A stretch of 64,000 nucleotides of DNA from Rhodocyclaceae bacterium (GTDB lineage Bacteria > Pseudomonadota > Gammaproteobacteria > Burkholderiales > Rhodocyclaceae). The number at the start of each line of letters is the position of its first letter. Within the stretch, counting starts at the first letter, position 1. Shown here in pieces: positions 9,147-45,050 of the stretch. Position numbers and translations under genes: made by a program. The stretch is from contig VBWA01000008.1 of assembly GCA_006218025.1 (NCBI GenBank), positions 1 to 64,000 on the forward strand. The letters run 5' to 3'. Under the pieces are notes generated by a model. The model was not told the DNA's origin. It saw nothing but the letters and a program-made list of their open reading frames with translations, and did not search any database.

Positions 9147-10082
9147 TCAGGCGGCGGGCGCCGCGAGGCCGCCGAAACGCTCGTAGAAGTATGGGGCAGC
9201 GGGGGGCAGGGGGCCATTTGCGGTCTCGCAGACTGCCAGCAAATGCTGCTGGGCCAGCGGGTAGGTGATGCTGTACAGGTCGCGGCAAAGCTGCCGGGCG
9301 ACGCCGCCGCTCCAGTTGGCGGGCAGCAGCTGGGATGGCAGTTGCGGATCGTGCAGCAGCGCTCGGCGGAAGTCGTGCATCAGCAGCGTCTGCACCAGGA
9401 AGCACTGCTCGGGATCGAGGTTGCCGGCGGCGCGCATGGTGCGCAATACAGGACGGAACAGTTCGACAAAGTCGTGGTATTTGGCTGCAAGTGCGTCGAG
9501 ATTCCAGCATTCATGCACCAGTTCCTGCAGCGGTTTGCTGGTCAGGGCGCTGATGTTGACGGCTTTCATGGCGACGACCTTGTCGTGCGCTCCCGTCTCC
9601 TGCAGGATGTCGAGCAGGGCGTCGGTATCGGCGGACGGCTGGCCGAGGATGCCTGAGGCCAGCGCGCCGTAGCCCGCCCAGGCCAGTTCCTTGCGCAGGG
9701 CGTCGCGTTGCGAGCCGCCCAGCGATCCGGGGATCATGACCAGTTGCCATTCGCCGGTCCAGGTGTCCTGCGGCGCGAAATAGATCCGGCGATAGGCGTG
9801 TTCGAAGCGGCGCCTGCCGGACGTGGTCAGGCTGTAATAACTCTTGCGGCCCATCTGCTCGGAGACCAGCCATTTTTCCTGGGACAGGCGATAGACGCTG
9901 GTGCGCACCATGCGCTCGTTGAGGCCCAGCGGTTCCACCAGCTTGATGAAGCTGCCGAGCCAGACTGTGCCGCCGTGAGGGGCGATGAAGTCGCCATAGA
10001 TCGTGATGATCAGCGAGTTGGCGCGGGCTGGATGCTGATCGAGGAAGTCCTTGATCCACTGGGTGATGTATCGGCTCTTCAC
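9147..10082 (-). CDS. PaaX-like GntR-superfamily transcriptional regulator
   Basis: Resembles PaaX, the phenylacetyl-CoA-responsive repressor of phenylacetate genes. Visible: N-terminal winged-helix region (SLIITIYGDFIAPHGG, VRTSVYRLSQEKWL, RKSYYSLTTSGRRRF) and the PaaX C-terminal domain ending LPANWSGGVARQLC...YFYERFGGL. The GTG at 10082 is chosen because family similarity begins just after it and AGGA lies a few bases upstream, giving 311 residues, close to E. coli PaaX. It sits between two transcription units carrying matching inverted half-sites, so it probably controls both the acyl-CoA synthetase/thioesterase pair and the fdhD-pad operon. PaaX is best known from the aerobic pathway; control of the anaerobic one here is inference. 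Confidence 0.85.
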   Translation of the reverse strand: MKSRYITQWIKDFLDQHPARANSLIITIYGDFIAPHGGTVWLGSFIKLVEPLGLNERMVRTSVYRLSQEKWLVSEQMGRKSYYSLTTSGRRRFEHAYRRIYFAPQDTWTGEWQLVMIPGSLGGSQRDALRKELAWAGYGALASGILGQPSADTDALLDILQETGAHDKVVAMKAVNISALTSKPLQELVHECWNLDALAAKYHDFVELFRPVLRTMRAAGNLDPEQCFLVQTLLMHDFRRALLHDPQLPSQLLPANWSGGVARQLCRDLYSITYPLAQQHLLAVCETANGPLPPAAPYFYERFGGLAAPAA

Positions 10083-10150
10083 ATTATTCCTAAAAGACGG
10101 ATCGGCGCGGTCGCGACGCTGCACATTGTATTGGATCGTCCGGCATACAG

Positions 10151-10168
10151 CATTAGACAACTCTAATG
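10151..10168. promoter_or_regulatory. 18-bp inverted repeat in the paaX-like/fdhD divergent region
   Basis: CATTAGA-CAAC-TCTAATG, perfect 7-bp arms around a 4-bp centre, without a T run. Its position in a divergent promoter region suggests a protein-binding site rather than a terminator. Confidence 0.45.
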
Positions 10169-10169
10169 T

Positions 10170-10208
10170 GATACAAAACCATTGCATCGATTGTGATCAA
10201 AGTGTATC
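10170..10208. promoter_or_regulatory. Paired GATACA/TGTATC sites upstream of fdhD-pad operon
   Basis: GATACA (10170-10175) and TGTATC (10203-10208), 27 bp apart, mirror the pair at 9069-9106. Together they flank the PaaX-like gene. Candidate operator for that regulator. Confidence 0.45.
10187..10200. promoter_or_regulatory. FNR/CRP-type binding site before the pad operon
   Basis: TCGAT-TGTG-ATCAA matches the FNR consensus TTGAT-N4-ATCAA at nine of ten fixed positions. A class II arrangement (site centre near -41) would put the start site near 10235, with TCAAAT at 10224-10229 as a possible -10 box. This fits anaerobic activation of an oxygen-independent pathway. Confidence 0.5.
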
Positions 10209-10260
10209 GTAACGTCAATAGGGTCAAATTTGGCCCCAATACGACCAGGCGAGGCGGGCA

Positions 10261-11076
10261 ATGCGACACGAGGCGGGTGTGGGCATCGAGGCACATAACA
10301 AGTACGGCGCGTACCGCTGGGCCGGCGCGGCCGGCACGCATTCGCACGAGACGGTGGCGGAAGAAGTTCCCGTGGCGCTGGTCTATAACGGCATCTCGCA
10401 TGCCGTGATGCTGGCGACGCCGCTGGACCTGGAAGATTTCGCCCTGGGTTTCAGCCTGAGCGAATGCATCGTCGGTCGCTCGGGTGAAATTCACGATCTG
10501 GAAATTGTCGAGCGGGACAACGGCATCGAAGTCCATATGCAGCTCTCCTCCGAGCGCGCCCATGTCCTCAAGGAACATCGGCGGACACTGGCCGGGCGCA
10601 CCGGCTGCGGTCTCTGCGGTTCGGAGAGCCTCGATCAGCTGGCCAAGCGGGCCGCTACCGTTCGCTCTTCCGCGGTGTTGAACCCGGGAGCATTGCCGCG
10701 TGCCTTGTCCGCGCTGCAGGAAATGCAGCACCTGTTCCATTTGACCGGGGCGGTGCATGCCGCCGCCTGGTGCGACTTCAACGGCGGAGTCCATCTGGTG
10801 CGGGAAGACGTGGGGCGTCACAACGCGCTCGACAAGGTGATCGGTTCCCTTGCGTCTCAGCGCCGGGCCTTCGACGACGGCTTCGTCCTCATGACCAGCC
10901 GCGCCAGTTACGAAATCGTGCAGAAGGCCGCGGCGGTCGGCATTGCGGTGGTCGCGGCGGTTTCTGCACCTACCGGCATGGCGGTCAGGGTGGCGATCGA
11001 CTCGGGGGTCACGCTCATCGGCTTTGCCCGCGGCGAGCGGCATTGCGTCTATTCGCATCCCGAGCGCGTTCAATAG
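10261..11076 (+). CDS. fdhD: Formate dehydrogenase accessory sulfurtransferase FdhD
   Basis: Sulfurtransferase that passes sulfur from IscS to the molybdenum cofactor so that bis-MGD enzymes become active. The redox-active motif CGLCG is present (C116, C119), with the family segments TPLDLEDFALGF, VREDVGRHNALDK and TSRASYEIVQKAA. The 271-residue length is normal. It is the first gene of the pad operon, 27 bp ahead of padB, which implies that it matures the molybdoenzyme PadB rather than a formate dehydrogenase; no formate dehydrogenase is encoded in the window. Confidence 0.93.
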   Translation: MRHEAGVGIEAHNKYGAYRWAGAAGTHSHETVAEEVPVALVYNGISHAVMLATPLDLEDFALGFSLSECIVGRSGEIHDLEIVERDNGIEVHMQLSSERAHVLKEHRRTLAGRTGCGLCGSESLDQLAKRAATVRSSAVLNPGALPRALSALQEMQHLFHLTGAVHAAAWCDFNGGVHLVREDVGRHNALDKVIGSLASQRRAFDDGFVLMTSRASYEIVQKAAAVGIAVVAAVSAPTGMAVRVAIDSGVTLIGFARGERHCVYSHPERVQ

Positions 11077-11103
11077 TCAGGGAAACAGGCGAGGAAAATC
11101 AGC

Positions 11104-13860
11104 ATGGCAGCAGCCCAATCGAAATCCGTCAAGCATGTTCCGACCCTTTGCTACAACTGCGTCTCCGGTCCCGACTTCATGACCGTCAAGGTGGTTGATG
11201 GCGTGGCGACCGAGATCGAACCCAATTTCGCTGCCGCCGAGGTGCATCCGGCGAAGGGGAAAGTCTGCGTCAAGGCCTACGGCCTGGTGCAGAAGACCTA
11301 CAACCCGAACCGCATCCTCACGCCGATGAAGCGCACCAACCCGAAGAAGGGGCGCAACGAGGATCCCGGCTTCGTGCCGATTTCCTGGGACGAAGCGCTC
11401 GACCTCGTCGCCGGCAAGCTCAATGCCGCGCGCGTCAAGGGTCTGGTCGATGAAGCCGGGCTCCCGCGGGTCGCCGTCAGCCTCGGCCACGGCGGTACGC
11501 CGTCCAATTACATGGGGACCTTCCCGGCCTTCCTGGCCGCTTGGGGCCCGGTGGATTTCAGCTTCGGGTCGGGTCAGGGCGTCAAGTGCGTGCATTCCGA
11601 GCATCTCTACGGCGAGTTCTGGCATCGCGGCTTCACCGTCGCCTCCGACACGCCCAACGCCCGCTACGTGATCGCCGTCGGCGCCAATGTTGAAGTGACG
11701 GGCGGTCCCTGCGCGGTGATCCGTCATGCCGACGCGCGCATTCGCGGCTACAAGCGCGTCCAGGTGGAGCCGAGCCTGACGGCGACCGGCGCCTGCTCCG
11801 CCGAATGGGTGCCGATCCGGCCCAAGACCGATCCGGCCTTTCTGTTCGCCCTGATCCATGTCCTGATGCAGGAGAACGGACTGGCCAGGCTCGACATTCC
11901 CTTCCTGCGCGACCGCACCGCTTCGCCCTACCTGATTGCACCGGACGGCCTCTATCTGCGCGATCCGCAAGGCGGCAAGCCGCTGGTATGGGACGAACTC
12001 ACGGGTACTGCCGTGCCGCACGATACGCCGGGCGCGCAACCCGCCGTGGCAGGTGTCTACCGCCTCGCTCATGCCGTCGTCGTCGATGCCGACAAGGAGC
12101 GCCGCGAGTATTCCGATGTCGAGGGCAAGACGGCCTACGAGATGCTTTTGCAGCACATTGCGAAGTACACGCCGGAGTGGGCCGAGACCATCTGCGACGT
12201 GAAGGCCGCGACCATCCGCCGCATCGCCAACGAGTACCTCGAAGCCGCCAGTATTGGCGAGACGATAGTGATCGACGGCAAGACCCTCGCTCTGCGGCCG
12301 GTGGCCGTGACGCTGGGCAAGTCGGTGAACAACGGCTGGGGCGCCTTCGAATGCTGCTGGGCGCGCACCGTGCTGGCTGCTTTGGTTGGCGCGCTGGAAA
12401 ACCCCGGCGGGCTGGTGGGCACCACGGTGCGACTCAACAAGTCGCGCGACAACCGCCACCTTTCCGTGGCGCCCGGCGAAGACGGCTTCATGGTCCAGTA
12501 CTTCAATCCGACCAGCAAGGAGGAATGGCAGTCGACGCCGTCCACCCGCAACCTGCACCAGACGCTGGTGCCGATCGTCGGTCACAACGGCGCCTGGAGC
12601 CAGGCGCTCGGCCCGACGCAACTGGCCTGGATGTTCCAGGGCGAGCGCCCGGACGACTGGTCGATGCCGATGCCGACGCTGCCGGACGTGTGGCTCGTCT
12701 ATCGCTCGAATCCGTCGATCTCCTTCTGGGACACGCGGCACCTGGCGGAGGTTGCGGCACGTTTTCCGTTCATGGCCTGCGTGGCCTACACGGTCGACGA
12801 GACCAATTACATGGCCGACGTGCTGCTGCCGGAGGCGACCGATCTCGAATCGACCCAGATGATCCGCATGGGCGGCACCAAGTACATGGAGCAGTTCTGG
12901 GACTACAAGGGCGTGGTGCTGCGGCAGAAGGCCGTCGAGCCGCAGGGCGAGGCGCGTGACTTCACCTGGATCACCACCGAGCTGGCCAGGCGCACCGGCC
13001 TGCTCGACCCGTATTTCGGCGCGATCAACAAGGGCATCTCCGGCGTTTCGCCGCTCAAGGGCGAGGGCTACGATTTCAGCCTGGATCCGGCAAGCGAACC
13101 GGCGCCCGAGCAGATATGGGACGCGGTCTGCCGCGCCGCCTCCGTCACGCTCTCGGAAGGCCGCGAGGAGCACGACCTGGAATGGTTCCGCGAAAACGGC
13201 TTCTTCGCCGTGCCGATGTCGCGGCTCGAGTGGTATCTGACGCCGACCATGGAAAAACTCGGGCTGCGCTACGAACTGCCCTACCAGGAACGCCTGCTGC
13301 GCGCCGGTCGCGAACTCGGCCGGCGGCTGCACGAGAAGAAGATGAACTGGTGGGACGAACAGCTTTCCGAATACACCGCGCTGCCGGAATGGCACGACGT
13401 GCCGGGGCGCTGGATCCGCAACCTGGAAAAATCGGGCGCCAAATTGGAGGACTTCCCCTTCTGGCTGCTCACCACCAAGAGCATGCAGTACCACGCCGGC
13501 GGCAATGCCGCGATCGAGGTGATGCACGAGGTGGCGCAGAACCTGCGCGGTCACGCCGGGGTGATCATGAATGCGAAGACCGCGGCCGGGCTCGGCATCG
13601 CAGAGGGCGATCGTGTCGAGGTGCGCTCCCACATCGGTGCCACCTACGGCAAGGCGTCCCTGATGCAGGGCATCCGGCCGGACACCCTGGTCATCATCGG
13701 CCAGTTCGACCACTGGGCGACGCCCTTCGCCAAGACCCTGGATGCGCCCAGCCTCAATACCATCGCGCCGATGTCGCTCGACCTCACCGACGCGACGGGT
13801 TCCGGTGCGGACATCGTGCGGGTGGGTGTGCGTCGCGTGGGCGAAGGAGCTACCGCATGA
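11104..13860 (+). CDS. padB: Phenylacetyl-CoA:acceptor oxidoreductase, molybdenum subunit PadB
   Basis: Catalytic subunit of the membrane-bound enzyme that oxidises phenylacetyl-CoA by four electrons to phenylglyoxylate (alpha-oxidation), reducing a quinone. It belongs to the DMSO reductase family with bis-MGD. Near the N-terminus only three cysteines are placed for the usual [4Fe-4S] cluster (C16, C19, C55); the position of the missing one is occupied by Pro-Asp. C162 (VKCVHSEHLYG) lies where a molybdenum-ligating residue is expected; that role is inferred. There is no Tat signal, consistent with a cytoplasmic-facing enzyme. Assignment rests on the fdhD-padBCDEFGHIJ order. The stop overlaps the start of a repeat-derived bridge frame (ATGA). 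Confidence 0.92.
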   Translation: MAAAQSKSVKHVPTLCYNCVSGPDFMTVKVVDGVATEIEPNFAAAEVHPAKGKVCVKAYGLVQKTYNPNRILTPMKRTNPKKGRNEDPGFVPISWDEALDLVAGKLNAARVKGLVDEAGLPRVAVSLGHGGTPSNYMGTFPAFLAAWGPVDFSFGSGQGVKCVHSEHLYGEFWHRGFTVASDTPNARYVIAVGANVEVTGGPCAVIRHADARIRGYKRVQVEPSLTATGACSAEWVPIRPKTDPAFLFALIHVLMQENGLARLDIPFLRDRTASPYLIAPDGLYLRDPQGGKPLVWDELTGTAVPHDTPGAQPAVAGVYRLAHAVVVDADKERREYSDVEGKTAYEMLLQHIAKYTPEWAETICDVKAATIRRIANEYLEAASIGETIVIDGKTLALRPVAVTLGKSVNNGWGAFECCWARTVLAALVGALENPGGLVGTTVRLNKSRDNRHLSVAPGEDGFMVQYFNPTSKEEWQSTPSTRNLHQTLVPIVGHNGAWSQALGPTQLAWMFQGERPDDWSMPMPTLPDVWLVYRSNPSISFWDTRHLAEVAARFPFMACVAYTVDETNYMADVLLPEATDLESTQMIRMGGTKYMEQFWDYKGVVLRQKAVEPQGEARDFTWITTELARRTGLLDPYFGAINKGISGVSPLKGEGYDFSLDPASEPAPEQIWDAVCRAASVTLSEGREEHDLEWFRENGFFAVPMSRLEWYLTPTMEKLGLRYELPYQERLLRAGRELGRRLHEKKMNWWDEQLSEYTALPEWHDVPGRWIRNLEKSGAKLEDFPFWLLTTKSMQYHAGGNAAIEVMHEVAQNLRGHAGVIMNAKTAAGLGIAEGDRVEVRSHIGATYGKASLMQGIRPDTLVIIGQFDHWATPFAKTLDAPSLNTIAPMSLDLTDATGSGADIVRVGVRRVGEGATA

Positions 13861-13976
13861 GCGCCGCCCGCAGGGCCGCCCCAAGGGCGGCGCAGCCAGC
13901 TATACGGAGCGAGCGACGCTCGCGAACCAACGTCACCCCCTTCCATGGGAAGGGGGATGGGGGGATGGTGCGATGA
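13857..13976 (+). CDS. Repeat-derived 39-residue bridge ORF between padB and padC
   Basis: The frame begins with an ATG overlapping the padB stop (ATGA at 13857-13860) and ends with a TGA overlapping the padC start (ATGA at 13973-13976). It is almost entirely one copy of the ~100-bp GC-rich repeat, and the peptide is basic and Ala/Arg/Gly-rich. It has no in-frame stop despite being made of repeat. Likely role: continuous coupled translation from padB to padC; a peptide function is not claimed. Confidence 0.45.
   Translation: MSAARRAAPRAAQPAIRSERRSRTNVTPFHGKGDGGMVR
13865..13970 (+). repeat. ~100-bp GC-rich repeat (padB/padC copy)
   Basis: Contains GGGCCGCCCCAAGG (13873-13886), then GCGAAC...GTCA, then a CCCCCTTCC/GGAAGGGGG hairpin (13936-13956) and GGGGGGATGG. 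The lolD copy (42600-42712) matches the same blocks in inverted orientation and the ebfC/recR copy in direct orientation. The G-rich end serves as ribosome-binding sequence for padC. Confidence 0.75.
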
Positions 13977-14620
13977 AGCGCTACGTGATGAGCATCGATC
14001 TGCGCCGCTGCGTCGGCTGCCAGACCTGCACCGCGGCCTGCAAGGGCGCCAACGCAACGCCGCCCGGGATTCAATGGCGCCGCGTGCTCGATATCGAGAC
14101 CGGCGAGTTTCCCGATGTGCAGCGGACCTTCTTGCCCATGGCCTGCATGCATTGCGCCAATCCTCCTTGCGAGAAAGTGTGTCCGACCCGGGCCACCACC
14201 AAGCGCGCCGACGGCCTGGTGGCGATCGACTACGAGCTTTGCATCGGCTGCGCCAATTGCGTCATGGCCTGTCCCTACGATGCCCGCTCCATCGTGCATG
14301 AGGCCCATTACGCCTATGGCGATACGCCGATGGCGTCCGAGGCCGCGCGCTTCGATCCGGACCGGATCGGGGTGTCGATGAAATGCAGCTTCTGCGTGGA
14401 TCGCATCGATCTCGCAGAACGCACCGGGCAGATTCCGGGCGTTGACCCCGAGGTGACTCCGGCCTGCGTCAATTCCTGCATCTCGGGCGCAATGGAATTT
14501 GGCGACATCGAGGATCCGGAAAGCAGCGTCAGCCGTTTGCTGGCGCAGACGCAGCACTACCGCATGCACGAGGAGCTGGGCACCGAGCCGGGCGTGTACT
14601 ACATTTGGGATCAGTCATGA
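13973..14620 (+). CDS. padC: Phenylacetyl-CoA:acceptor oxidoreductase, iron-sulfur subunit PadC
   Basis: Electron-transfer subunit between PadB and the membrane anchor PadD, of the DmsB/PhsB type. The 215-residue protein has four cysteine groups totalling sixteen cysteines, enough for four [4Fe-4S] clusters: C13-C16-C19-C23, then ACMHCANPPCEKVCP, LCIGCANCVMACP, and KCSFC with ACVNSC. Its stop overlaps padD (ATGA). Unlike the neighbouring junctions, padB to padC is separated by a repeat. Confidence 0.92.
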   Translation: MKRYVMSIDLRRCVGCQTCTAACKGANATPPGIQWRRVLDIETGEFPDVQRTFLPMACMHCANPPCEKVCPTRATTKRADGLVAIDYELCIGCANCVMACPYDARSIVHEAHYAYGDTPMASEAARFDPDRIGVSMKCSFCVDRIDLAERTGQIPGVDPEVTPACVNSCISGAMEFGDIEDPESSVSRLLAQTQHYRMHEELGTEPGVYYIWDQS

Positions 14621-15537
14621 AGAAACCCCTCCTTCGCGCCTCCAGCCTGGCTTCTCCCAAGCAGCAGCACAACTGGGATTGGCGCGCGGCAAGCAATTTC
14701 ATCGCCGGCGGCGCTGGCGGCGGACTGTTGCTGTGGGCATCGGTGGTCAATGCGTCAGCCGATGCCACCCGGATGGCGATCCTGCTGGGCCTGATCCTGA
14801 TCGGCAGCGGACTCACCTGCGTCTGGTTCGAGATCGGCCGGCCGTGGCGCGCATTGAACGTGTATCGGCATTTCGCCACCTCATGGATGACGCGCGAAGC
14901 GGTGGTGGCCCTGGGAGTGTTCGCCGCGGGCGGCCTGGCCTTGCTCACCGGCGCGTTCGCACTGAGCTTCCTCGCGGGCATTCTGGGTCTGACGTTTCTG
15001 TACAGCCAGGCGCGAATCCTGGCGGCCAACAAGGGGATTCCGGCATGGCGGCACCCGCGCAGTATCTCGCTGATGATCGCCACCGGCCTCGCTGAAGGTG
15101 CCGGCTTTCTCGTTTGCGTGCTGTCGCTGTCGTCCGCTGCAGTCGGCTTTCCGGTTCTCGCCGGCCTGATCGCGCTGATCGTCGTCCGGGCATTATTCTG
15201 GAAGAGCTATCTCGGCGCATTGGTGGCCGACGGTGCGCCCGACGCGACACTGAAGGTGCTGAGCGGGATTGCCCCGAGATTGCTGGTCGTCGGCCACATT
15301 CTGCCGGCACTTGCTGTCGTCGCAGCCATGGCGGGAATGCCGGGAGGGGCGGTACTGAGCTTTGCGGCAGGGATCCTGGTGGTCGCCGGTGGCTGGTTCC
15401 TGAAGTTCACCCTGGTCAGACGCGCGGCGTTTACGCAGGGCCTCGCACTGCTGCACTTGCCGGTACGCGGGCAGGGCACGGCCGGCGCGGCAACAAAGCC
15501 AGGCTGGAAAACCGTGCCAGGGGTCAAGGCGGGCTAG
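14617..15537 (+). CDS. padD: Phenylacetyl-CoA:acceptor oxidoreductase, membrane anchor PadD
   Basis: Integral membrane protein of about 306 residues with roughly eight hydrophobic segments, DmsC/NrfD-like. It would anchor PadBC to the cytoplasmic membrane and pass electrons to the quinone pool. Conserved-looking segment WFEIGRPWRALNVYRHFATSWMTREA resembles DmsC-type anchors. The ATG overlaps the padC stop, so translation is coupled. The C-terminal 25 residues are soluble and variable. Confidence 0.9.
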   Translation: MKKPLLRASSLASPKQQHNWDWRAASNFIAGGAGGGLLLWASVVNASADATRMAILLGLILIGSGLTCVWFEIGRPWRALNVYRHFATSWMTREAVVALGVFAAGGLALLTGAFALSFLAGILGLTFLYSQARILAANKGIPAWRHPRSISLMIATGLAEGAGFLVCVLSLSSAAVGFPVLAGLIALIVVRALFWKSYLGALVADGAPDATLKVLSGIAPRLLVVGHILPALAVVAAMAGMPGGAVLSFAAGILVVAGGWFLKFTLVRRAAFTQGLALLHLPVRGQGTAGAATKPGWKTVPGVKAG

Positions 15538-15599
15538 CCGGATTCAAGAAGAAAACAGGGAGTGGGGCCGGAGAGCCCCATCGAATCGGAGGAGACGGG

Positions 15600-16172
15600 A
15601 TGTACGAAGTACGCTTTCATGGCCGCGGCGGTCAAGGCGCCGTTACGGCGGCATCGATGCTCGCGTCGGCGCTGCTGGAAGAAGGCAAGTATGCGGTGTC
15701 GATCCCGTCCTTCGGTTTCGAGCGGCGCGGCGCGCCCGTGGTCTCCTTCCTGCGCTGCAGCGATCGCGAAATCCGCCAGCTGACGAACATCTACACGCCG
15801 GACTGCCTGATCTGCGTCGATCCGACGCTGGCGAAGTCGGTCGATATCTTCAGCGGCCTCAAGCCCGGCGGCACGCTGGTGCAGGCCACGCACAAGCCGC
15901 TGGCAGAGGTGGTGATCGCCGATACGGTCGGGGTGGTCGGCCTGTGCGACGCCATCGGCATCGCGCTCGAGGTTTTCAAGCGCCCGATCACCAATACCAT
16001 AATGCTCGGTGCATTTGCGAAGACGACCGGCGTCGTATCGTTGGGGGCGCTCAAGCGTTCGCTCGAAGACTCGGATTTTCGCGATGCCGGTCTGGCGCAG
16101 AACCTCATCGCACTCGAACGCGGCTACAACGAGACGACGGTGCACACCATAGAACGGAGGGTTGCGGCATGA
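15600..16172 (+). CDS. padE: Phenylglyoxylate dehydrogenase gamma subunit PadE
   Basis: Gamma subunit of a 2-oxoacid:acceptor oxidoreductase; the complex PadEFGHI decarboxylates phenylglyoxylate to benzoyl-CoA with NAD reduction. Family features: VRFHGRGGQGAVTAASMLA at the N-terminus, FGFERRGAPV, and the C-terminal GAFAKTTGVVSL. A Shine-Dalgarno (GGAGGAG) lies a few bases before the ATG. The stop overlaps padF (ATGA). The 190-residue size fits the subunit. Confidence 0.92.
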   Translation: MYEVRFHGRGGQGAVTAASMLASALLEEGKYAVSIPSFGFERRGAPVVSFLRCSDREIRQLTNIYTPDCLICVDPTLAKSVDIFSGLKPGGTLVQATHKPLAEVVIADTVGVVGLCDAIGIALEVFKRPITNTIMLGAFAKTTGVVSLGALKRSLEDSDFRDAGLAQNLIALERGYNETTVHTIERRVAA

Positions 16173-16468
16173 GCCGGCACGACAGCTATCCCCTGTTCGA
16201 CCTGGCCAAGGCGAATGTGCCGGACGATCTGTGTCCGGTCGCGACCGTGGTCAGTCCGATGCTCCCCGGCGACTGGCGCAGCATGCGACCGGTGGTCAAT
16301 CGCGACAAGTGCGTCAAATGCGCGGTGTGCTGGCTGTACTGCCCGGTGCAGTGCGTCGAGGAACACGCGGCCTGGTTCGATTTCAACCTCAAGACCTGCA
16401 AGGGTTGCGGCATCTGTGCCAACGAGTGCCCGCAACGCGCGATCACCATGATTGCGGAGGCGACATGA
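16169..16468 (+). CDS. padF: Phenylglyoxylate dehydrogenase delta subunit PadF (ferredoxin-like)
   Basis: Small 99-residue protein with two CxxCxxCxxxC-type groups (KCVKCAVCWLYCP and TCKGCGICANECP) for two [4Fe-4S] clusters, the delta subunit of the oxidoreductase. It passes electrons between the TPP-bearing subunits and PadH. It overlaps padE upstream; downstream it overlaps a 29-codon bridge frame that carries a 24-bp dispersed repeat. Confidence 0.92.
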   Translation: MSRHDSYPLFDLAKANVPDDLCPVATVVSPMLPGDWRSMRPVVNRDKCVKCAVCWLYCPVQCVEEHAAWFDFNLKTCKGCGICANECPQRAITMIAEAT

Positions 16469-16554
16469 GTCTCGCGAGTTCCCAGTCCGGCTCGAATCGC
16501 CGTGTCGCCAGCGCCGACTTTTGTACCTGCACCATGTTCGCGGAGACCAAATGA
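16465..16554 (+). CDS. 29-residue bridge ORF carrying the 24-bp repeat, between padF and padG
   Basis: Starts at an ATG overlapping the padF stop (16465-16468, ATGA) and stops at a TGA overlapping the padG start (16551-16554, ATGA). The centre encodes RRVASADF, the translation of the dispersed repeat, with two nearby cysteines (CTC). The perfect ATGA at both ends and absence of an internal stop argue that coupling is selected. A peptide function cannot be claimed. Confidence 0.45.
   Translation: MSLASSQSGSNRRVASADFCTCTMFAETK
16498..16522 (-). repeat. 24-bp dispersed repeat, copy 3
   Basis: CGCCGTGTCGCCAGCGCCGA followed by CTTTT, an exact family copy inside the padF/padG bridge frame. Confidence 0.85.
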
Positions 16555-17798
16555 CTACCGCCATTCTTGAAACGCCGAGCCAGACCCAGCCGGCGAAGCA
16601 GAAAGTCATGCTCTGCGAAGGCAACGAGGCCGCCGCACTGGGCGTCGCGCTGGCGCGTCCCGACATGGTTGCCGTGTATCCGATCACGCCGCAGTCCTCG
16701 CTGGTCGAGCACGTCGCCAAGCTGATCGCCGACGGCCGCATGGACGCCGACATCGTCGATGCCGAGGGCGAGCATTCGGTGCTCTCCGTCCTGCAAGGCG
16801 GCGCACTGGCCGGGGCGCGGACTTATACCGCGACCTGCGGCCCGGGCCTCGCTTTCATGTTCGAACCCTATTTCCGCACTTCCGGCATGCGCCTGCCGAT
16901 CGTCATGTCGATCGTCACGCGCGACGGCATCACACCGCAGTCGGTGTGGGGCGGGCATCAGGATGCGATGACGGTGCGCGAGGTCGGCTGGGTGCAGGTG
17001 TATTGCGAGACAGTGCAGGAGGTTCTCGACACCACGATCATGGCCTTCAAGATAGCCGAGCACCACGACGTCATGCTGCCGGTGAATGTCTGCCTCGACG
17101 GCAACTACCTTTCCTATGGCACCTCGCGCGTCGAACTGCCCGATCAGGCCGAAGTCGATGCCTTCATGGGCGTCAAGGACGTCAACTGGCACGTGGCCCT
17201 GGACCCGCTGCGGCCGATGGCGGTGGATCCGCTGACCGGAGGTTCGGGCGGCAAGGGACCATCGACTTTCGTTCGCTACCGCAAGGGGCAGTGCCGTGGC
17301 ATGCAGAACTCGCTGCGTGTCATCGAGGAGGTGCATGAGGAATGGGCGCAGCGTTTCGGCCGCCGCTTTGCGCCACTGGTCGAGGAGTACCGCCTCGACG
17401 GCGCCGACTACGCGATCATGACTCTGGGCAGCATGACCGGAGCTGCGAAGGATGCGATCGACGAGGCGCGCGACGCCGGCAAGAAGGTCGGGCTGATCAA
17501 GATAAAGACCTTCAGCCCCTTCCCGGTCGAAGCGCTGCTCAAGTCTTTGAACAAGGTTCAGGCGCTCGGCGTCGTCGATCGTTCGGTGGGCTTCCGCTGG
17601 AATTGCGGGCCGATGTATCAGGAAACCATGGGCGTCCTGTATCGCCTCGGGCGACACGTTCCTTCGATGAGCTTCATCGGCGGCCTCGCCGGCGCCGACA
17701 TCACGGTCGGACATTTCCACCGCGTCATCGAAGCGACGGAAAAACTGCTCAGCAGTCCCGCGCCGATCGAGCCGGTCTGGCTCAACGAGAAAGATTGA
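16551..17798 (+). CDS. padG: Phenylglyoxylate dehydrogenase alpha subunit PadG
   Basis: Alpha subunit of the pyruvate:ferredoxin oxidoreductase family, 415 residues. Typical segments are present: EGNEAAALGVALARPDMVAVYPITPQSS, DAEGEHSVLSVLQGGALAGARTYTATCGPGL and the C-terminal transketolase-like domain with KIKTFSPFP. With PadI it forms the thiamine diphosphate active site for phenylglyoxylate decarboxylation and CoA transfer. No strong Shine-Dalgarno precedes it; translation probably depends on the upstream 29-codon frame. Confidence 0.93.
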   Translation: MTTAILETPSQTQPAKQKVMLCEGNEAAALGVALARPDMVAVYPITPQSSLVEHVAKLIADGRMDADIVDAEGEHSVLSVLQGGALAGARTYTATCGPGLAFMFEPYFRTSGMRLPIVMSIVTRDGITPQSVWGGHQDAMTVREVGWVQVYCETVQEVLDTTIMAFKIAEHHDVMLPVNVCLDGNYLSYGTSRVELPDQAEVDAFMGVKDVNWHVALDPLRPMAVDPLTGGSGGKGPSTFVRYRKGQCRGMQNSLRVIEEVHEEWAQRFGRRFAPLVEEYRLDGADYAIMTLGSMTGAAKDAIDEARDAGKKVGLIKIKTFSPFPVEALLKSLNKVQALGVVDRSVGFRWNCGPMYQETMGVLYRLGRHVPSMSFIGGLAGADITVGHFHRVIEATEKLLSSPAPIEPVWLNEKD

Positions 17799-17809
17799 GG
17801 GACCAAGCG

Positions 17810-19069
17810 ATGGAACACACCAAATACCTTGTGGTCGGCAGCAGCCACGCCGCGCTCGAAGCCGTGACGGCAATCCGCATGCACGATGCCAAAGGCAGCC
17901 TGACGCTGCTGACGCGCGATCCGCATCTGCCTTACTCGCCGACCGTCTTGCCCTATGTTGTTTCCGGGCGCTCCTCACCCGACGGCATCTTCTTGCGCGA
18001 TGAGAAATTCTTTGCCGACAACCGGGTCCAGTTGAAGCGCGGCACCGCACTGAAGGCCCTGCATGTCGAGCGCAATGCGGCGGAGCTCGCCGATGGCAGC
18101 GAGATCGCCTACGAGAAGATCCTGCTGGCAACCGGCGCGTCCCCGGCGATTCCGCCGATTCCGGGAATCGATACGGTGTCGTACCACGTGCTGCGCACGC
18201 TAGACGATGCGACGAAGCTGAATGCCGCGATCAAGCAGTCGAAACAGGCCGTGGTGCTCGGCGCCGGGCTGGTCGGCATGCACGCCGCCGAGAACCTGGT
18301 GAAAGTCGGCGCTGGCGTTACGGTGGTGGAAATGGCGAAACAACTGACCGACGGCTATTTTGATGCCACGGCGGCGGCGCTGATCGAAAAGGCCTTCACC
18401 GACAACGGCGCGACCATTCTTACCGGCAGCCGCGTGGTCAAGCTCGCGCCGTCGTCGAAGGGCGTCACGCTGACGCTGGAGAACGGCACGACGCTGGAAG
18501 CCGACCTGCTGCTGGTCGCCACCGGCGTCAGGCCGAACATGGCCTACCTGAATGGATCCGGCCAGCTCGTCCTTCACGACAAGGGCATTCTCGTCAGCGA
18601 CAGCATGCAAACCAGCGTCGCCAATGTCTGGGCGGCCGGCGATTGCGCGCAGGCCAAGGGATTCTTCACGGACAGTAAGGTGATGAACGCGATCCTGCCC
18701 GACGCGACAGAGCAGGGACGCATCGCCGGCATGGCGATGGCAGGCGACCCAGGCCTGAAGACCTACCCGGGCGGCGTACCGCTGAACACCTACCATTTCT
18801 TCGGCCGCCATGCGATCTCCGTCGGCAGCAGCAAGGTTCCCGAAGGCGCCGAAGTCGTGACGCGGTTCGACGAAGCCAGCGGCCGCTATCTCAAGGCGAT
18901 CTTCAAGGATGGCTGCCTGCTCGGCATCTACGGCGTCAACGAATTCTTCGACGCCGGCGTCATGTGCCAGTTGATCCTGCGCCGGATCGACCTGTCGGCG
19001 GTGAAGCAGCGCTTCCTCGCCGAGCCGATGAAAGTGGGCCGCGAAATCATGTCGAAGACGTGGAGATAA
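17810..19069 (+). CDS. padH: Phenylglyoxylate dehydrogenase NAD(P)H:acceptor subunit PadH
   Basis: FAD-dependent pyridine-nucleotide oxidoreductase, 419 residues, which hands electrons from the iron-sulfur subunits to NAD+. The N-terminal dinucleotide-binding motif is atypical (VVGSSHAALEA); the second is regular (VVLGAGLVGMHAAE). The FAD-binding segment VWAAGDCAQAKGF is present near residue 275. A stretch in the second nucleotide-binding domain (about 18302-18325, KVGAGVTVVE) is one base from the 24-bp dispersed repeat but is also what the fold requires. The start follows padG by 11 bp. Confidence 0.92.
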   Translation: MEHTKYLVVGSSHAALEAVTAIRMHDAKGSLTLLTRDPHLPYSPTVLPYVVSGRSSPDGIFLRDEKFFADNRVQLKRGTALKALHVERNAAELADGSEIAYEKILLATGASPAIPPIPGIDTVSYHVLRTLDDATKLNAAIKQSKQAVVLGAGLVGMHAAENLVKVGAGVTVVEMAKQLTDGYFDATAAALIEKAFTDNGATILTGSRVVKLAPSSKGVTLTLENGTTLEADLLLVATGVRPNMAYLNGSGQLVLHDKGILVSDSMQTSVANVWAAGDCAQAKGFFTDSKVMNAILPDATEQGRIAGMAMAGDPGLKTYPGGVPLNTYHFFGRHAISVGSSKVPEGAEVVTRFDEASGRYLKAIFKDGCLLGIYGVNEFFDAGVMCQLILRRIDLSAVKQRFLAEPMKVGREIMSKTWR

Positions 19070-19071
19070 GC

Positions 19072-20424
19072 ATGGCAATGTTTGGAGGGGCCTACAACAC
19101 CATCGCCTTCGACGCCGCGAAATGCGACGGCTGCGGCGACTGCATGACGGCTTGCGCGACGGCCAAGACGGGTACTGTCGATCAGTCACGCTCGCGCATC
19201 CAGATCGTCGGCAGCGAGCATGACGGCTTCGAACTCGCCCTCTGCCGCCAGTGCGGCGATCCCAAGTGCGTCACGGTCTGTCCAGCCGCGGCGCTGACCA
19301 AGAATGGCGACAGCGGTGTCATCGAGTGGAATGCATCGAAATGCGTCGATTGCCTGCTGTGCACGGTGGGCTGCGCCTACGCCGGCATTGCCCTCGATGC
19401 GGGCAGCGGCCACGTCGCCAAGTGCGATACCTGCGATGGCGCCCCGGCTTGCGTGCCGGCCTGTCCACACCAAGCGCTGACCTACATTACGACCTCGCGC
19501 ATTTACAACGAAGTCGGCGACTGGGAGGATCTCTTCGCTCCGGGTCTCGCCGGCTGCCAAGGCTGCAACACCGAACTCCTGATGCGCCACACGCTGCGCC
19601 GGGTCGGCCCGGAGACCGTGCTGGCGACGCCGCCGGGCTGCGTTCCCGGCATGGGCTCGGTCGGTTTCAACGGCACCACCGGCACCAAGGTCCCGGTTTT
19701 CCATCCGCTGCTGACCAATACCGCGGCCATGCTGGCCGGGATCAAGCGCCAGTACAGGCGTGTCGGCCGCGAAGTCAATGCGCTGGCCATTGCCGGTGAC
19801 GGCGGCGCCTCGGACGTGGGTTTCCAGTCGCTGTCCGGCGCCGCCGAGCGCAATGAACAGATACTTTTCATGGTGGTCGACAACGAGGGCTACATGAACA
19901 CTGGCATGCAGCGTTCGAGCTGCACGCCCTATGGCGCCTGGACCTCGACCACGCCGATCGGCAAGGGTTCGGGCGGCATGCCGTCCCAGGGCAAGACACA
20001 GGATGCCAAGAACCTGCCCCTGATCATGGTCAACCATCGCTGCGAGTATGTCGCGACCGCATCGACGGCCTACATGCAAGACCTCTACGACAAGCTCGAC
20101 AAGGCGATTCAGGCCTCCAAGCGCGGCTTTGCCTATCTGCACGTCTATTCGCCCTGTACCACGGGCTGGCGCTTCCCGACCGACCAGAACATGGAGGTCG
20201 CGCGCAAGGCGGTCGAAACCAACTTCGTGATGCTCTGGGAGTACAACCCGAAGGATGGCCTGGAGTTCACGCGGCCGGTGGATGATCCGCTGCCGGTGAC
20301 CGAGTATCTGAAGGCGATGGGACGCTTCCGCCATCTGAGTCCGGATCAGATTTCACACATACAGGGCAAGGTCGTGGAAAATCTCGCTTTCGTCAAACAA
20401 ATGGCTCATCGACAGAGCGCATAG
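19072..20424 (+). CDS. padI: Phenylglyoxylate dehydrogenase beta subunit PadI with polyferredoxin N-terminus
   Basis: TPP-binding beta subunit, 450 residues, fused to an N-terminal polyferredoxin. The first 140 residues hold four cysteine groups (KCDGCGDCMTACA, LCRQCGDPKCVTVCP, KCVDCLLCTVGCA, KCDTCDGAPACVPACP). The C-terminal part has the TPP motif GDGGASDVGFQSLSGAAERNE and VDNEGYMNTGMQ. This fusion is characteristic of phenylglyoxylate dehydrogenase. The gene starts 2 bp after the padH stop. Confidence 0.93.
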   Translation: MAMFGGAYNTIAFDAAKCDGCGDCMTACATAKTGTVDQSRSRIQIVGSEHDGFELALCRQCGDPKCVTVCPAAALTKNGDSGVIEWNASKCVDCLLCTVGCAYAGIALDAGSGHVAKCDTCDGAPACVPACPHQALTYITTSRIYNEVGDWEDLFAPGLAGCQGCNTELLMRHTLRRVGPETVLATPPGCVPGMGSVGFNGTTGTKVPVFHPLLTNTAAMLAGIKRQYRRVGREVNALAIAGDGGASDVGFQSLSGAAERNEQILFMVVDNEGYMNTGMQRSSCTPYGAWTSTTPIGKGSGGMPSQGKTQDAKNLPLIMVNHRCEYVATASTAYMQDLYDKLDKAIQASKRGFAYLHVYSPCTTGWRFPTDQNMEVARKAVETNFVMLWEYNPKDGLEFTRPVDDPLPVTEYLKAMGRFRHLSPDQISHIQGKVVENLAFVKQMAHRQSA

Positions 20425-20434
20425 GGGGAGCAAC

Positions 20435-21745
20435 ATGAGCGAGCAGGATGGCAGTCTGGAACCAATCGAGAAGGCAAGCCGGGACGAGTTGCAGGCGTTG
20501 CAGTTGCAGCGCATGAAGTGGTCCTTGCAGCACGTCTATGACAACGTGCCGCACTATCGCAAGAAGTACGACGCCGCCGGAGTGCACCCGAACGATCTGA
20601 AGCAGCTGTCGGATCTGGCGAAATTTCCCTTCACGACCAAGCTCGACCTGCGTGACACCTATCCCTACGGCATGTTCGCGACGCCGATGCGCGACGTGGT
20701 GCGCATTCATGCTTCCTCGGGCACGACCGGCAAGCCCACCGTGGTCGGCTACACCAAGAACGACATCGCCATGTGGGCAAACCTGATGGCCCGCTCGCTG
20801 CGCGCCGCAGGATGCTCTGCCGACGACATCATCCTCAACTCCTATGGCTACGGACTATTTACCGGCGGCCTCGGCGCGCACTACGGCGGAGAGGCCCTGG
20901 GCGCCACGGTGATCCCGATGTCCGGCGGCCAGACCGAAAAGCAGGTGCAGCTGATTCAGGATTTCAAGCCCACGGTGATTCTGTGCACGCCGTCCTATGT
21001 GCTGACCATCGCCGATGAGATGATCAAGCTGGGCATCAAGCCGAACCAGACCAGCCTGCGCGTGGGTGTCTTCGGCGCCGAACCGTGGACCAACGAAATG
21101 CGTCGCGAGATCGAGGAGCGCCTGGGCATCGATGCCGTGGATATCTATGGCTTGTCGGAAGTCATGGGGCCCGGAGTGTCCTGCGAATGCGTCGAGACCA
21201 AGGACGGCCCGCACATCTGGGAAGACCATTTCTACCCGGAGATCATCAATCCGGAAACCGGCGAAGTGCTGCCGGACGGCGAAATGGGCGAACTGGTGTT
21301 TACCTCGCTGTCCAAGGAGGCGCTGCCGATCATCCGCTACCGTACGCGCGACCTGACGCGGCTTCTGCCGGGAACGGCGCGCAGCATGCGGCGCATGGAA
21401 AAGATCACCGGCCGCAGCGACGACATGCTGATCATTCGCGGCGTGAATGTCTTCCCGACGCAGATCGAGGAGATCTTGCTGAAGAACCCCAGCCTGTGCG
21501 CCCAGTACCAACTGCAAGTCTCGCGCGAAGGCCACCTCGACCAGCTGGATGTCTATGTCGAGGTACGGGCCGACCTGTCGAACTCGATCAGCGAAGCCAG
21601 GCGCCGTGAAATCGGCGCCGAGGTGAAACACCACATCAAGTCCCTGGTCGGGGTCAGCGCAGACGTTCATGTGGTCGAAACCGACAAGGTCGAAAGAACC
21701 TTGGTAGGGAAGGCCAGACGGGTCATCGATCGGCGGCCGAAATAG
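20435..21745 (+). CDS. padJ: Phenylacetate-CoA ligase PadJ (AMP-forming)
   Basis: Activates phenylacetate to phenylacetyl-CoA using ATP, the first step of the pathway encoded upstream. Family features of PaaK-type ligases: HASSGTTGKPTVVGYT (residues 92-107), YGLSEVMGPG, and the C-terminal RSDDMLIIRGVNVFPTQIE. The length of 436 is typical. The start has a GGGGGAGC Shine-Dalgarno and lies 10 bp after padI, so it is the last gene of the fdhD-pad operon. Confidence 0.95.
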   Translation: MSEQDGSLEPIEKASRDELQALQLQRMKWSLQHVYDNVPHYRKKYDAAGVHPNDLKQLSDLAKFPFTTKLDLRDTYPYGMFATPMRDVVRIHASSGTTGKPTVVGYTKNDIAMWANLMARSLRAAGCSADDIILNSYGYGLFTGGLGAHYGGEALGATVIPMSGGQTEKQVQLIQDFKPTVILCTPSYVLTIADEMIKLGIKPNQTSLRVGVFGAEPWTNEMRREIEERLGIDAVDIYGLSEVMGPGVSCECVETKDGPHIWEDHFYPEIINPETGEVLPDGEMGELVFTSLSKEALPIIRYRTRDLTRLLPGTARSMRRMEKITGRSDDMLIIRGVNVFPTQIEEILLKNPSLCAQYQLQVSREGHLDQLDVYVEVRADLSNSISEARRREIGAEVKHHIKSLVGVSADVHVVETDKVERTLVGKARRVIDRRPK

Positions 21746-21937
21746 AGATACGATGATTGATTTGCCCGACTACAAGTAATGTATTATTTTTCCGTTCAGC
21801 ACCTCAGAGTGGATGCACTATAGTTCACAGGCGGTCTGGGGAGTCTAGAACCTTAGATATACGAGCAGGCTGATTTTCGCTGTACCCATGCAATTTCAAT
21901 AAGGCTTTTTTAATAGCCAACCTAAGAGGAGATGCAG

Positions 21938-22969
21938 ATGAAGAAGCTACTGGCAAAAACACTGATCGCCGCATCAATGGCAGGAACTGCTTTGGCAGTT
22001 CAGGCCCAGGAAGTGACATTGAAGGTGCATCACTTTCTTTCGCCGACGACATTCATCCAGGTAGGTGTATTCGAGCCCTGGTGCGCCAAACTGGGCAAGG
22101 AATCCAACAACCGGATCAAGTGCCAGATCTACCCGGCGATGCAACTCGGTGGCACTCCGCCGCAGCTCTTCGACCAGGCCAAGGACGGCATTGCCGATGT
22201 AGTGTGGACCGTTCTCGGCTATTCGGCCAACCGCTTCCCGATGTCGGAAGTCTTCGAACTGCCCTTCACGATGACCAACGCCGAGGCGACCAGCCGTGCC
22301 GCCTGGGACTTCACGCAAACCTACGCCAAGCATGAGTTCAAGGACGTCCATGTGCTTGCCGTGCATGTCCACGGCCCCGGTTACCTGTTCACCACCAAGA
22401 AGCAGATGAACACGATGGCCGATTTCAAGGGCATGAAGTTCCGTGCGCCGACCCGCCTGACCAACAAGATGCTGGCCGCAATGGGCGCGACCCCGGTAGG
22501 CATGCCGGTACCCGCGGTGCCGGAAGCGCTGTCCAAGGGCGTGATCGAAGGTGCCGTGATTCCTTACCAGGTGGTGCCGAGCATCAAGGTCAATGAGCTG
22601 GTCAAGTACGCGGCCGAGACTGATCCCAAGTACAACGCCTTGTACACCACGGTGTTCACCATCGCCATGAACAAGGCCAAGTACGACTCGCTGCCGGCCG
22701 ACCTGAAGAAAGTCATCGACAACAACTCGGGCCAGGAGTTCTCGGCCATGGCCGGTCGGGTGCAGGAAGCCGACGATGGTCCCGGACGCGAAAAGGTCAA
22801 GGCCTCCGGCGTGACCATCAACGTGATCCCCGCCGCCGAGCTCGACAAGTGGAAGAAGGCCACCGACAGCCTCGACGACGAGTGGGCGGCCAGCATGACC
22901 AAGGCCGGTCATGACGGGCCCAAGCTGCTGAAGGCGGCGCAGGATCTGATCAAGAAGTACACCAAGTAA
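21938..22969 (+). CDS. TRAP transporter periplasmic solute-binding protein (DctP family)
   Basis: Periplasmic receptor of a tripartite ATP-independent transporter. A signal peptide is evident (MKKLLAKTLIAASMAG..., cleavage likely after VQA near residue 23). The family segments QLFDQAKDGIADVVWT and MKFRAPTRLTNKMLAAMG are present; the arginine in FRAPTR normally binds the substrate carboxylate. The ATG at 21938 is preferred because AGGAG is correctly spaced; an ATG six bases upstream is too close. Position directly after padJ suggests uptake of phenylacetate or a related aromatic acid, an inference. Confidence 0.9.
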   Translation: MKKLLAKTLIAASMAGTALAVQAQEVTLKVHHFLSPTTFIQVGVFEPWCAKLGKESNNRIKCQIYPAMQLGGTPPQLFDQAKDGIADVVWTVLGYSANRFPMSEVFELPFTMTNAEATSRAAWDFTQTYAKHEFKDVHVLAVHVHGPGYLFTTKKQMNTMADFKGMKFRAPTRLTNKMLAAMGATPVGMPVPAVPEALSKGVIEGAVIPYQVVPSIKVNELVKYAAETDPKYNALYTTVFTIAMNKAKYDSLPADLKKVIDNNSGQEFSAMAGRVQEADDGPGREKVKASGVTINVIPAAELDKWKKATDSLDDEWAASMTKAGHDGPKLLKAAQDLIKKYTK

Positions 22970-22985
22970 GTCTGGCGTCACCATG

Positions 22986-23018
22986 CCGGGTACCGATTCG
23001 CTTCGGTACCCGGTTTTT
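22986..23018 (+). terminator. Hairpin terminator/attenuator between dctP and dctQ genes
   Basis: CCGGGTACCG / CGGTACCCGG perfect 10-bp stem, 8-base loop, then TTTTT. Located inside the TRAP operon it probably lowers expression of the membrane subunits relative to the abundant binding protein. Confidence 0.85.
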
Positions 23019-23070
23019 CTGCGCGGCTGCGGCTGATGCAGGATGAATTGTTCCATTTCGGGAGTTCCTG

Positions 23071-23595
23071 ATGGCAGAAGCACTGTTTGTCGACACCGAT
23101 GCGCGACCTGACGCCCTGATCGGCCGGGTGCTGCACAAGCTCTGCCGTTTTTTCGCGGTATGCGCCGGCATCACGCTGATCCTGATGGCGCTGATGTCGT
23201 TGACCAGCATCGTCGGCCGCGCCTTGTTCGACAAGCCGATACTCGGCGATTACGAACTGGTGCAGATGCTGTCGGCGGTTGCCGTCACCATGTCGCTGCC
23301 CTTCTGCCAGATGATCCGCGGCCACATCATTGTCGATTTCTTTACCACGGCGCTGCCTTCCCGCATCAACAAGAGGCTCGATATCTTCGCCAGCCTGGTG
23401 ATGGCTGTTGCGGCCTTCATTTTTTGCTGGCGCATCACCCTGGGCATGATCGATCTGTACGGCAACGGCGATGCCTCCATGCTGCTCAATCTGCAAACAT
23501 GGTGGGGCTACGCCCCCATGGTGCCGTCCTTCTTCCTGCTGGGCTGCGCCGCGCTGTATACGGCCTGGGTCGATTTCACCGGAGCCCGAGCATGA
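23071..23595 (+). CDS. TRAP transporter small membrane subunit (DctQ family)
   Basis: 174 residues with four predicted membrane helices, including the family pattern GRALFDKPILGDYELVQM and CQMIRGHIIVDFF. It forms the membrane unit with DctM. Its stop overlaps the DctM start (ATGA), so the two are made together. Confidence 0.9.
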   Translation: MAEALFVDTDARPDALIGRVLHKLCRFFAVCAGITLILMALMSLTSIVGRALFDKPILGDYELVQMLSAVAVTMSLPFCQMIRGHIIVDFFTTALPSRINKRLDIFASLVMAVAAFIFCWRITLGMIDLYGNGDASMLLNLQTWWGYAPMVPSFFLLGCAALYTAWVDFTGARA

Positions 23596-24908
23596 CCGGT
23601 ATCGAACAGGGCATGCTGATCGGCGGCCTGATGCTGCTGCTGATGGCCATGCGCATGCACATCGCCATGGCCATGCTGGTCGCCGGTTCCATCGGCTATG
23701 TCTGGATCGCCGGGCCGGCGACGCTGCTGAACTACATGAAGACCGCGGCCTGGGCGCGCTACTCGATCTACGATCTTTCGGTGGTGCCGCTGTTCCTGCT
23801 GATGGGGCAGTTCGCCACCCATGGCGGTCTTTCCAAGGCGCTGTTTCGCGCCGGCAACACCCTGATCGGGCACTGGCGCGGCGGCATGGCCATGGCGGCA
23901 GTGGGCGCCTGCGCCGGCTTCGGCGCGATCTGCGGCTCCTCGCTGGCGACGGCAGCCACCATGGGCCAGGTCGCGCTGCCGGAACTGCGCAACCACAAGT
24001 ACTCGGGGCGGCTGGCCACCGCGGCGATTGCGGCCGGCGGAACGCTGGGCATCCTGATCCCGCCCTCGGTGCCGCTGGTGATCTACGCCATCCTGACCGA
24101 ACAGAACATCGCCAAGTTGTTCGTTTCGGCATTCATCCCGGGTCTGATCGCGATGTTCGGCTACATGCTGGTGATCGGCATCATGGCCCGCGTCGATCCG
24201 ACCTCGGCACCTGCGGGCGATCGCGCCACCTGGACCGAGAGACTGGCCGCGCTGATGGACACCTGGCCCGTGCTGCTGATCTTCACCGTCGTGATCGGCG
24301 GCATCTACGGCGGCTTCTTCACGCCCACCGAAGCCGCGTCGATCGGTACGCTCGCCACCGGCTACGTCGCCTGGAAATCCGGCGGGCTGCGCAAGCATGG
24401 CTTCATCGAATGCCTCTACGGAACCGCACAGGCGACGGCGATGATCTTCCTGATCCTGCTCGGCGCGGACATCATGAACGTGTTCCTGGCGCTGACCCAG
24501 ATGCCGGCGGAGTTATCCAAATGGGTGGTGGGCCTCGGTCTTTCGCCGCTCCTGGTTCTTTTCGTGATCCTCTGCATCTACCTGATGCTCGGCTGCATCA
24601 TGGACAGCCTGTCGATGATCCTGCTCACGGTGCCGATATTCTTTCCCATCGTCATGGGGCTGGATTATTGGGGTCTTGACGCGGAATCCAAGGCGATCTG
24701 GTTCGGCATTCTCACGCTGATGGCGGTCGAGGTCGGCATGATCACACCGCCGGTTGGGCTCAACGTGTTCATCATCAGCAGCATGGCCAAGGAAACGAGC
24801 ATGAAGGAAACCTTCATCGGCATCGTGCCCTTCCTCGCCTCGGATTTCCTGAGGATTGCGCTGCTGGTCTTCGTTCCCTCGATCGCGCTGATTGCCCTGA
24901 AACTATAG
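23592..24908 (+). CDS. TRAP transporter large membrane subunit (DctM family)
   Basis: 438-residue permease with about twelve hydrophobic segments. Family signatures include GAICGSSLATAATMGQVALPEL, GILIPPSVPLVIYA and GFFTPTEAASIG. It imports substrate with a sodium or proton gradient. The gene ends at 24908; a 24-bp repeat and then a strong terminator follow immediately. Confidence 0.93.
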   Translation: MTGIEQGMLIGGLMLLLMAMRMHIAMAMLVAGSIGYVWIAGPATLLNYMKTAAWARYSIYDLSVVPLFLLMGQFATHGGLSKALFRAGNTLIGHWRGGMAMAAVGACAGFGAICGSSLATAATMGQVALPELRNHKYSGRLATAAIAAGGTLGILIPPSVPLVIYAILTEQNIAKLFVSAFIPGLIAMFGYMLVIGIMARVDPTSAPAGDRATWTERLAALMDTWPVLLIFTVVIGGIYGGFFTPTEAASIGTLATGYVAWKSGGLRKHGFIECLYGTAQATAMIFLILLGADIMNVFLALTQMPAELSKWVVGLGLSPLLVLFVILCIYLMLGCIMDSLSMILLTVPIFFPIVMGLDYWGLDAESKAIWFGILTLMAVEVGMITPPVGLNVFIISSMAKETSMKETFIGIVPFLASDFLRIALLVFVPSIALIALKL

Positions 24909-45038: not shown

Positions 45039-45050
45039 ATAATGCGGGCC

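Follow-up and report, generated by a model that had tools for sequence, protein, structure and literature searches.

The window analyzed here, a 64,000-nucleotide stretch of DNA from a member of the Rhodocyclaceae, harbors a pad (phenylacetate) operon, whose features given with coordinates below are located on the plus strand. Within this operon, padB (positions 11104 to 13860) is an ORF of 918 amino acids, the 3′ end of which reads GC-ATGA and whose product, with orthologs in 58 pad loci, is assigned as the catalytic subunit of a molybdopterin oxidoreductase. The ORF designated padC (positions 13973 to 14620), with 61 related loci, is assigned as the iron-sulfur electron-transfer subunit. As the matches of PadB to molybdopterin models and of PadC to Fe-S subunit models fell below the respective cut-offs, these names are presumptive, being based on the operon and on what is known of pad operons in general.

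Direct reading and translation of the sequence between these genes revealed a bridge ORF of 39 codons (positions 13857 to 13976), which specifies MSAARRAAPRAAQPAIRSERRSRTNVTPFHGKGDGGMVR followed by a stop codon. Its ATG at position 13857 lies in the ATGA of padB (positions 13857 to 13860), where the padB stop and the bridge start overlap, and its TGA, ending at position 13976, lies in the ATGA of padC (positions 13973 to 13976), where the bridge stop and the padC start overlap. The original prediction had described a 39-codon frame joining padB and padC with ATGA at both ends, and its coordinates proved exact. The criterion for translational coupling, namely, a stop/start overlap or a separation of a few nucleotides, is met by the ATGA at each end of the bridge. 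The frame of the bridge differs from those of both neighbors, and the criterion for a Rickettsia palindromic element (RPE), being in frame and inside a gene, is therefore not met.

The two ATGA motifs flank a 112-nt insert (positions 13861 to 13972) belonging to a repeat family designated F1, in which three hairpins are predicted. Hairpin 1 (positions 13861 to 13893, with arms at 13861 to 13869 and 13885 to 13893) is based on the fold and on the comparison of 20 copies, while hairpin 2 (positions 13909 to 13923, with arms at 13909 to 13914 and 13918 to 13923) and hairpin 3 (positions 13936 to 13956; CCCCCTTCC-ATG-GGAAGGGGG) are based on the fold, for which −72.8 kcal/mol was calculated over 151 nt (z, −2.7). 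F1 is dispersed: a search of G000, the genome to which the window belongs, gave 36 matches, and the density was approximately 16 to 19 copies per Mb in the surveyed stretches. It meets the criterion for REP/MITE-type elements in being short, palindromic, and present in many genomic copies. The length of its core ranged from 95 to 107 nt among the copies compared, with differing remainders modulo 3. The arms of hairpin 1 differ in sequence between copies with their complementarity kept, as exemplified by GCGCCGCCC/GGGCGGCGC and GCGACATCC/GGATGTCGC; across copies L001 to L020, the outer arm changes and still pairs with the inner arm, as if the stem were renewed or selected pairwise.

Within the genus, the nearest named relatives being Sulfuritalea, each of the 31 genomes searched contained F1, which was also present at high copy number in G035, which represents one further genus of the family and in which copies were often located at convergent sites and two bridges were found. 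Three other genera of the family each yielded a single weak match, and no F1 copy was detected in 24 genomes from other families. An Rfam search of window positions 10000 to 24000 returned no match up to an E value of 0.1, and a search of the window's own genome for a transposase (RAYT or that of a parent insertion sequence) returned one Y1_Tnp match, located at a contig end and without an established link to F1.

A second bridge ORF, consisting of 29 codons as determined by translation (positions 16465 to 16554), joins padF and padG, which encode subunits of phenylglyoxylate dehydrogenase according to curated models. The earlier claim that this bridge derives from another repeat was borne out: it contains a copy of F2 (positions 16499 to 16519; GCCGTGTCGCCAGCGCCGACT), identified by a search of the window's own genome and a scan of the window, and this repeat is both shorter and more abundant than that of the padB-padC bridge. 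A genome-wide survey (described below) identified three bridge-forming families, namely, F1 (in either orientation), the short repeat F2, and F3, the bridges of which have one frame in common, reading DPQISPIDAD...LRNLRHLRIE.

Both the insert and the corresponding empty site are directly observed at the padB-padC junction. Among the related loci in which both genes could be read, 47 of 58 carry a bare 4-nt ATGA overlap at this junction, in agreement with the original prediction that an ancestral overlap would be apparent in related pad operons. The closest relative, L071, whose PadC is 98% identical, is empty at padB-padC as well as at padC-padD, padE-padF, and padF-padG. Comparison of the empty site (GC-ATGA-AGCGC) with the occupied site (GC-ATGA-[112]-ATGA-AGCGC) shows that ATGA was duplicated around the insert, the second ATGA being a copy of the single ancestral one. 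The same duplication was apparent at fdnHI and pdhAB, and the empty-site criterion for REP/MITE elements, in this case one ATGA in empty and two in occupied sites, was met at all three junctions. The padF-padG insert is common to the window and more distant relatives, yet it is missing from L071, which implies precise loss or replacement by recombination in the latter.

Inserts of at least 25 nt following an ATGA or GTGA stop were counted across the pad loci, including the window (n = 33). Exact bridges, defined as open frames ending on the ATGA of the next gene, accounted for 31 of these inserts, and both non-bridging inserts belong to L074, a more distant metagenome-assembled genome. At padB-padC, inserts were present in four other loci, three of which carry an element distinct from that of the window (element A, 112 nt) and one a 76-nt element, and all of these bridge; a frame-breaking change at this junction in close relatives, which would have refuted the original prediction, was sought and not found. 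Based on a FastTree tree of PadB and PadC (window included), in which the inserts lie on separate branches, the sequences suggest that at least four separate insertion events may have occurred at this junction, an estimate made by eye without a formal test. At padF-padG, 22 of 23 inserts are exact bridges, and the 13 distinct insert lengths (49, 52, 61, 64, 70, 82, 112, 139, 151, 166, 172, 208, and 241 nt) all equal 1 modulo 3. Inserts at padC-padD and padE-padF likewise keep the frame. The padD-padE spacer, where no overlap exists, was distributed over the three length classes without bias (14/8/16 by our own count). Many loci share ancestry, and the bridge counts are therefore inflated and not all independent.

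Similar arrangements were evident in other operons. At fdnHI, 17 junctions were bare and three carried inserts (118, 118, and 190 nt), all three being exact bridges; the L234 bridge exceeds that of L222 by 72 nt, a multiple of three, its F1 copy containing additional palindromic sequence, and the frame is still open. At pdhAB, seven bare junctions, three 4-nt mini-bridges (MTP followed by a stop), and one F1 insert forming an exact bridge were found. At nuoAB, three 133-nt inserts are all exact bridges, and seventeen 22-nt gaps can be read as nine-codon mini-bridges, one of them after a CTGA stop. Such a nine-codon mini-bridge, variable in sequence and fixed in frame, occurs at nuoA-nuoB (L192 to L219) in most of the genus, and some loci possess a 7-nt gap with a four-codon version. 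The nuoAB inserts in L198 and L211 are out of frame from the nuoA stop, such that initiation at an internal site would be required; by eye, each contains an ORF running from an internal ATG to the ATGA of nuoB.

The genome-wide survey employed a simple home-made gene finder and covered 2.06 Mb, of which 1.26 Mb came from G000 and 0.80 Mb from a congener with a complete genome, G002, with repeat-bearing gaps of 25 to 400 nt being sorted by the upstream stop ([AG]TGA versus other). Following [AG]TGA stops, 14 of 22 gaps in G000 and 8 of 12 in G002 were exact bridges (22/34), as opposed to 3 of 55 and 5 of 44, respectively, following other stops (8/99; Fisher P = 1.7e-10). The length class which permits bridging was overrepresented after [AG]TGA stops (25/34; P = 2e-6), with no bias after other stops (37/99; P = 0.23); gene starts in this survey were predicted, and the length class depends on the reading frame alone. 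Since 12 of the 34 repeat gaps following [AG]TGA were not exact bridges, the bridging rule is strong rather than absolute. The strict ATGA-to-ATGA criterion undercounts bridges which start a few nucleotides past the stop (e.g., copy L002), and a less strict test based on simulated indels was therefore performed: F1 occurs in 24 codirectional gaps, 17 of which were bridged, and a simulated deletion of 1 or 2 nt left 2 of 24. The control genome, G040, had few [AG]TGA pairs and no repeat-bearing gaps, and it could consequently serve as a background check only.

Several further repeat copies were noted in the course of this work. Within the window, a reverse-orientation F1 copy (positions 42606 to 42710) lies in frame inside the N-terminus of a lolD-like gene, representing a fusion rather than a relay from one gene to the next. 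Another F1 copy (positions 58500 to 58603), located between ybaB-like and recR-like genes, has an open frame of bridge length, and because its upstream stop is CTGA, a relay there would need a CUG start. Two adjoining 42-bp units of another GC-rich repeat (positions 44956 to 45039) directly precede a gene. In L010 (positions 1480 to 1640), the frame of an F1 copy between metX-like and metW-like genes enters metW as an N-terminal extension, without an ATGA end.

From two repeat families with the same double-ATGA outcome, the original prediction had inferred a selected outcome rather than one odd insertion. This inference is supported by the several unrelated inserts which keep the frame at padB-padC; by the preservation of frame at padF-padG, padC-padD, padE-padF, fdnHI, pdhAB, and nuoAB; and by bridge counts, both at the pad loci and genome-wide, which exceed chance. 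The frame and the exact stop are observed to be kept across many inserts.

Whether ribosomes completing one gene can cover long distances on the mRNA before reaching the next, or must re-initiate at once, is a matter of debate. That dozens of inserts bridge in these related bacteria suggests that the transfer of ribosomes between consecutive genes has to be uninterrupted. In native E. coli gene pairs, a spacing of +14 nt reduced reinitiation by 40 to 80% and one of +38 nt almost abolished it (PMC10666635), on the basis of which a folded 112-nt insert at ATGA would be expected to uncouple the genes, although coupling across longer gaps has been reported in other studies (PMC12548453). We propose that a mobile-type repeat entered the ATGA stop/start overlap of padB-padC, with an ATGA remaining at either end. 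If not translated, a strongly folded spacer of 112 nt would be expected to abolish termination-reinitiation and uncouple the genes, and it is for this reason that mainly inserts readable as a relay are presumed to persist. Ribosomes ending padB would start anew at the AUG within the overlap, read through the hairpins for 39 codons, stop at the second AUGA, and then re-initiate on padC, such that the translated bridge would restore the −4 spacing at both ends. In the absence of profiling, proteomic, or reporter data, we consider it probable that coupled operons tolerate repeats chiefly when these can be translated as a termination-reinitiation relay. Translation of the bridge by ribosomes is itself inferred, as is any dependence of the downstream gene on upstream translation; what has been demonstrated is conservation of the frame. 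Pending expression data, the comparisons point to a padB-padC coupling that is kept rather than modified, and an altered or tuned PadB:PadC stoichiometry is conjecture only.

It is also inferred that selection operates once an insert is in place and that the elements do not target such sites. The elements may instead be compatible by construction, in length, open frame, and Shine-Dalgarno (SD) exit, or may aim for ATGA, in which case no site-by-site selection would be required and the relay would still operate. This remains a tenable, if less favored, explanation: neither the orientation nor the frame of element A differed between its insertions (L033, L035, L038, L045, L051, and L086), F3 bridges are all in one frame, and the inserts are flanked by ATGA on both sides. 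It is, similarly, conceivable rather than likely that several unrelated families are specialized relay elements which enter ATGA overlaps with their own frame, SD exit, and stop/start. Construction of this kind is at odds with the variable F1 core, whose lengths and differing remainders favor selection at each site, and with the formation of F1 bridges in both orientations, the padF-padG lengths which differ by multiples of three, and the lack of class bias in repeat gaps after other stops.

A further inference is that selection maintains reinitiation and not simply the covering of the mRNA by ribosomes. According to the latter explanation, the bridge would be kept only because translating ribosomes protect the mRNA against Rho-dependent termination, RNase, and hairpins, with padC starting from its own SD sequence. 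The strong folding of the insert is compatible with such a role, and of 68 bridges, 53 have an SD-like 4-mer ahead of the second ATGA (the corresponding figures being 101 of 212 for ordinary −4 overlaps and 166 of 1,270 for random ATGA sites), making independent initiation possible. Cover alone would, however, allow early stops near the 3′ end, none of which was found in the unfiltered pad and fdnHI inserts outside L074, and it does not call for a bridge stop exactly on the start codon. In the other two frames, 16 and 18 of the 68 bridges, respectively, have a stop within the final 36 nt; exact bridges are stop-free by construction, and these counts are therefore supportive only, with the unfiltered tables carrying the argument. 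Ribosome cover against Rho and RNases is thus improbable as the sole explanation, while it is a serious rival which may contribute.

That the bridge encodes a functional small protein is hardly credible, even though its open frame is conserved and SD-like sites are present. When homologous bridges were compared in pairs, differences were spread evenly over codon positions 1, 2, and 3 (253/272/219, the pairs not being independent), 468 of 545 codon differences were nonsynonymous, and the same position is filled by unrelated repeats. The even spread indicates selection on the frame and not on the peptide; the criterion for a functional small protein, a conserved peptide or codon-position bias, is not met, and a functional peptide was rejected for want of such a bias. 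A PadB-bridge-PadC fusion produced by −1 frameshifting at each AUGA, for which the same length classes would be kept because the three frames represent successive −1 steps (an inference), is very unlikely, as at the ATGA motifs no slippery sequence was seen and the AUGA overlap has been documented as a signal for reinitiation (PMC6728339, PMC10666635). A termination-reinitiation relay best accounts for the frame, the exact position of the stop, and the absence of peptide-level constraint.

Understood as relays, the bridges constitute a repeated natural experiment, in which most of the inserts (approximately 40 to 260 nt) retained between coupled genes have translatable forms ending on the next start codon. 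They provide comparative evidence for the importance of close coupling in ordinary operons (pad, nuo, fdn, and pdh) and natural constructs with which coupling may be tested, and they serve as a warning for annotation, since such small ORFs are probably relays and not proteins. In the literature searched, which mostly excluded subscription papers, no description of dispersed repeats as translated relays in operons was found, nor any paper on Sulfuritalea repeats or on repeats which preserve coupling.

The mechanism is, by analogy, of a known kind. Termination-reinitiation at ATGA overlaps (PMC6728339, PMC10666635) relies on the same signal and has the same need for a short distance, and in the bridges it would operate twice in series; known ATGA coupling joins two real genes directly, whereas in the present case an ORF derived from a repeat and free of peptide constraint lies between them and would sustain the relay. 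Synthetic bicistronic designs likewise couple a small leader ORF to the start codon of the following gene (e.g., PMC10367133), in which the leader is engineered, the bridge being an insertion inside a natural operon. REP, MITE, and ERIC elements are, like F1, short, palindromic, and dispersed, but they are usually reported as intergenic or at 3′ ends (PMC10969869, PMC3733652), and the papers searched describe no function for them as translational relays. RPEs resemble the bridges in that repeats are tolerated when translatable in a suitable frame; they insert within genes and join the protein, whereas the bridge ORF is separate and flanked by stop/start overlaps (PMC10969869). The nearest described analogue, judged on likeness, is the short ORF of integron attI1 and attC sites (ORF-11, ORF-17, and attC ORFs), a translated ORF within a structured element, located between two genes, which ribosomes pass by termination-reinitiation, translation relieving stem-loop barriers and permitting reinitiation, and in which, as in the bridges, the peptide sequence hardly matters (PMC8876359). 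The integron ORFs belong to recombination sites, whereas the bridges are formed by dispersed chromosomal repeats, genus-wide and in ordinary operons such as pad, fdn, nuo, and pdh.
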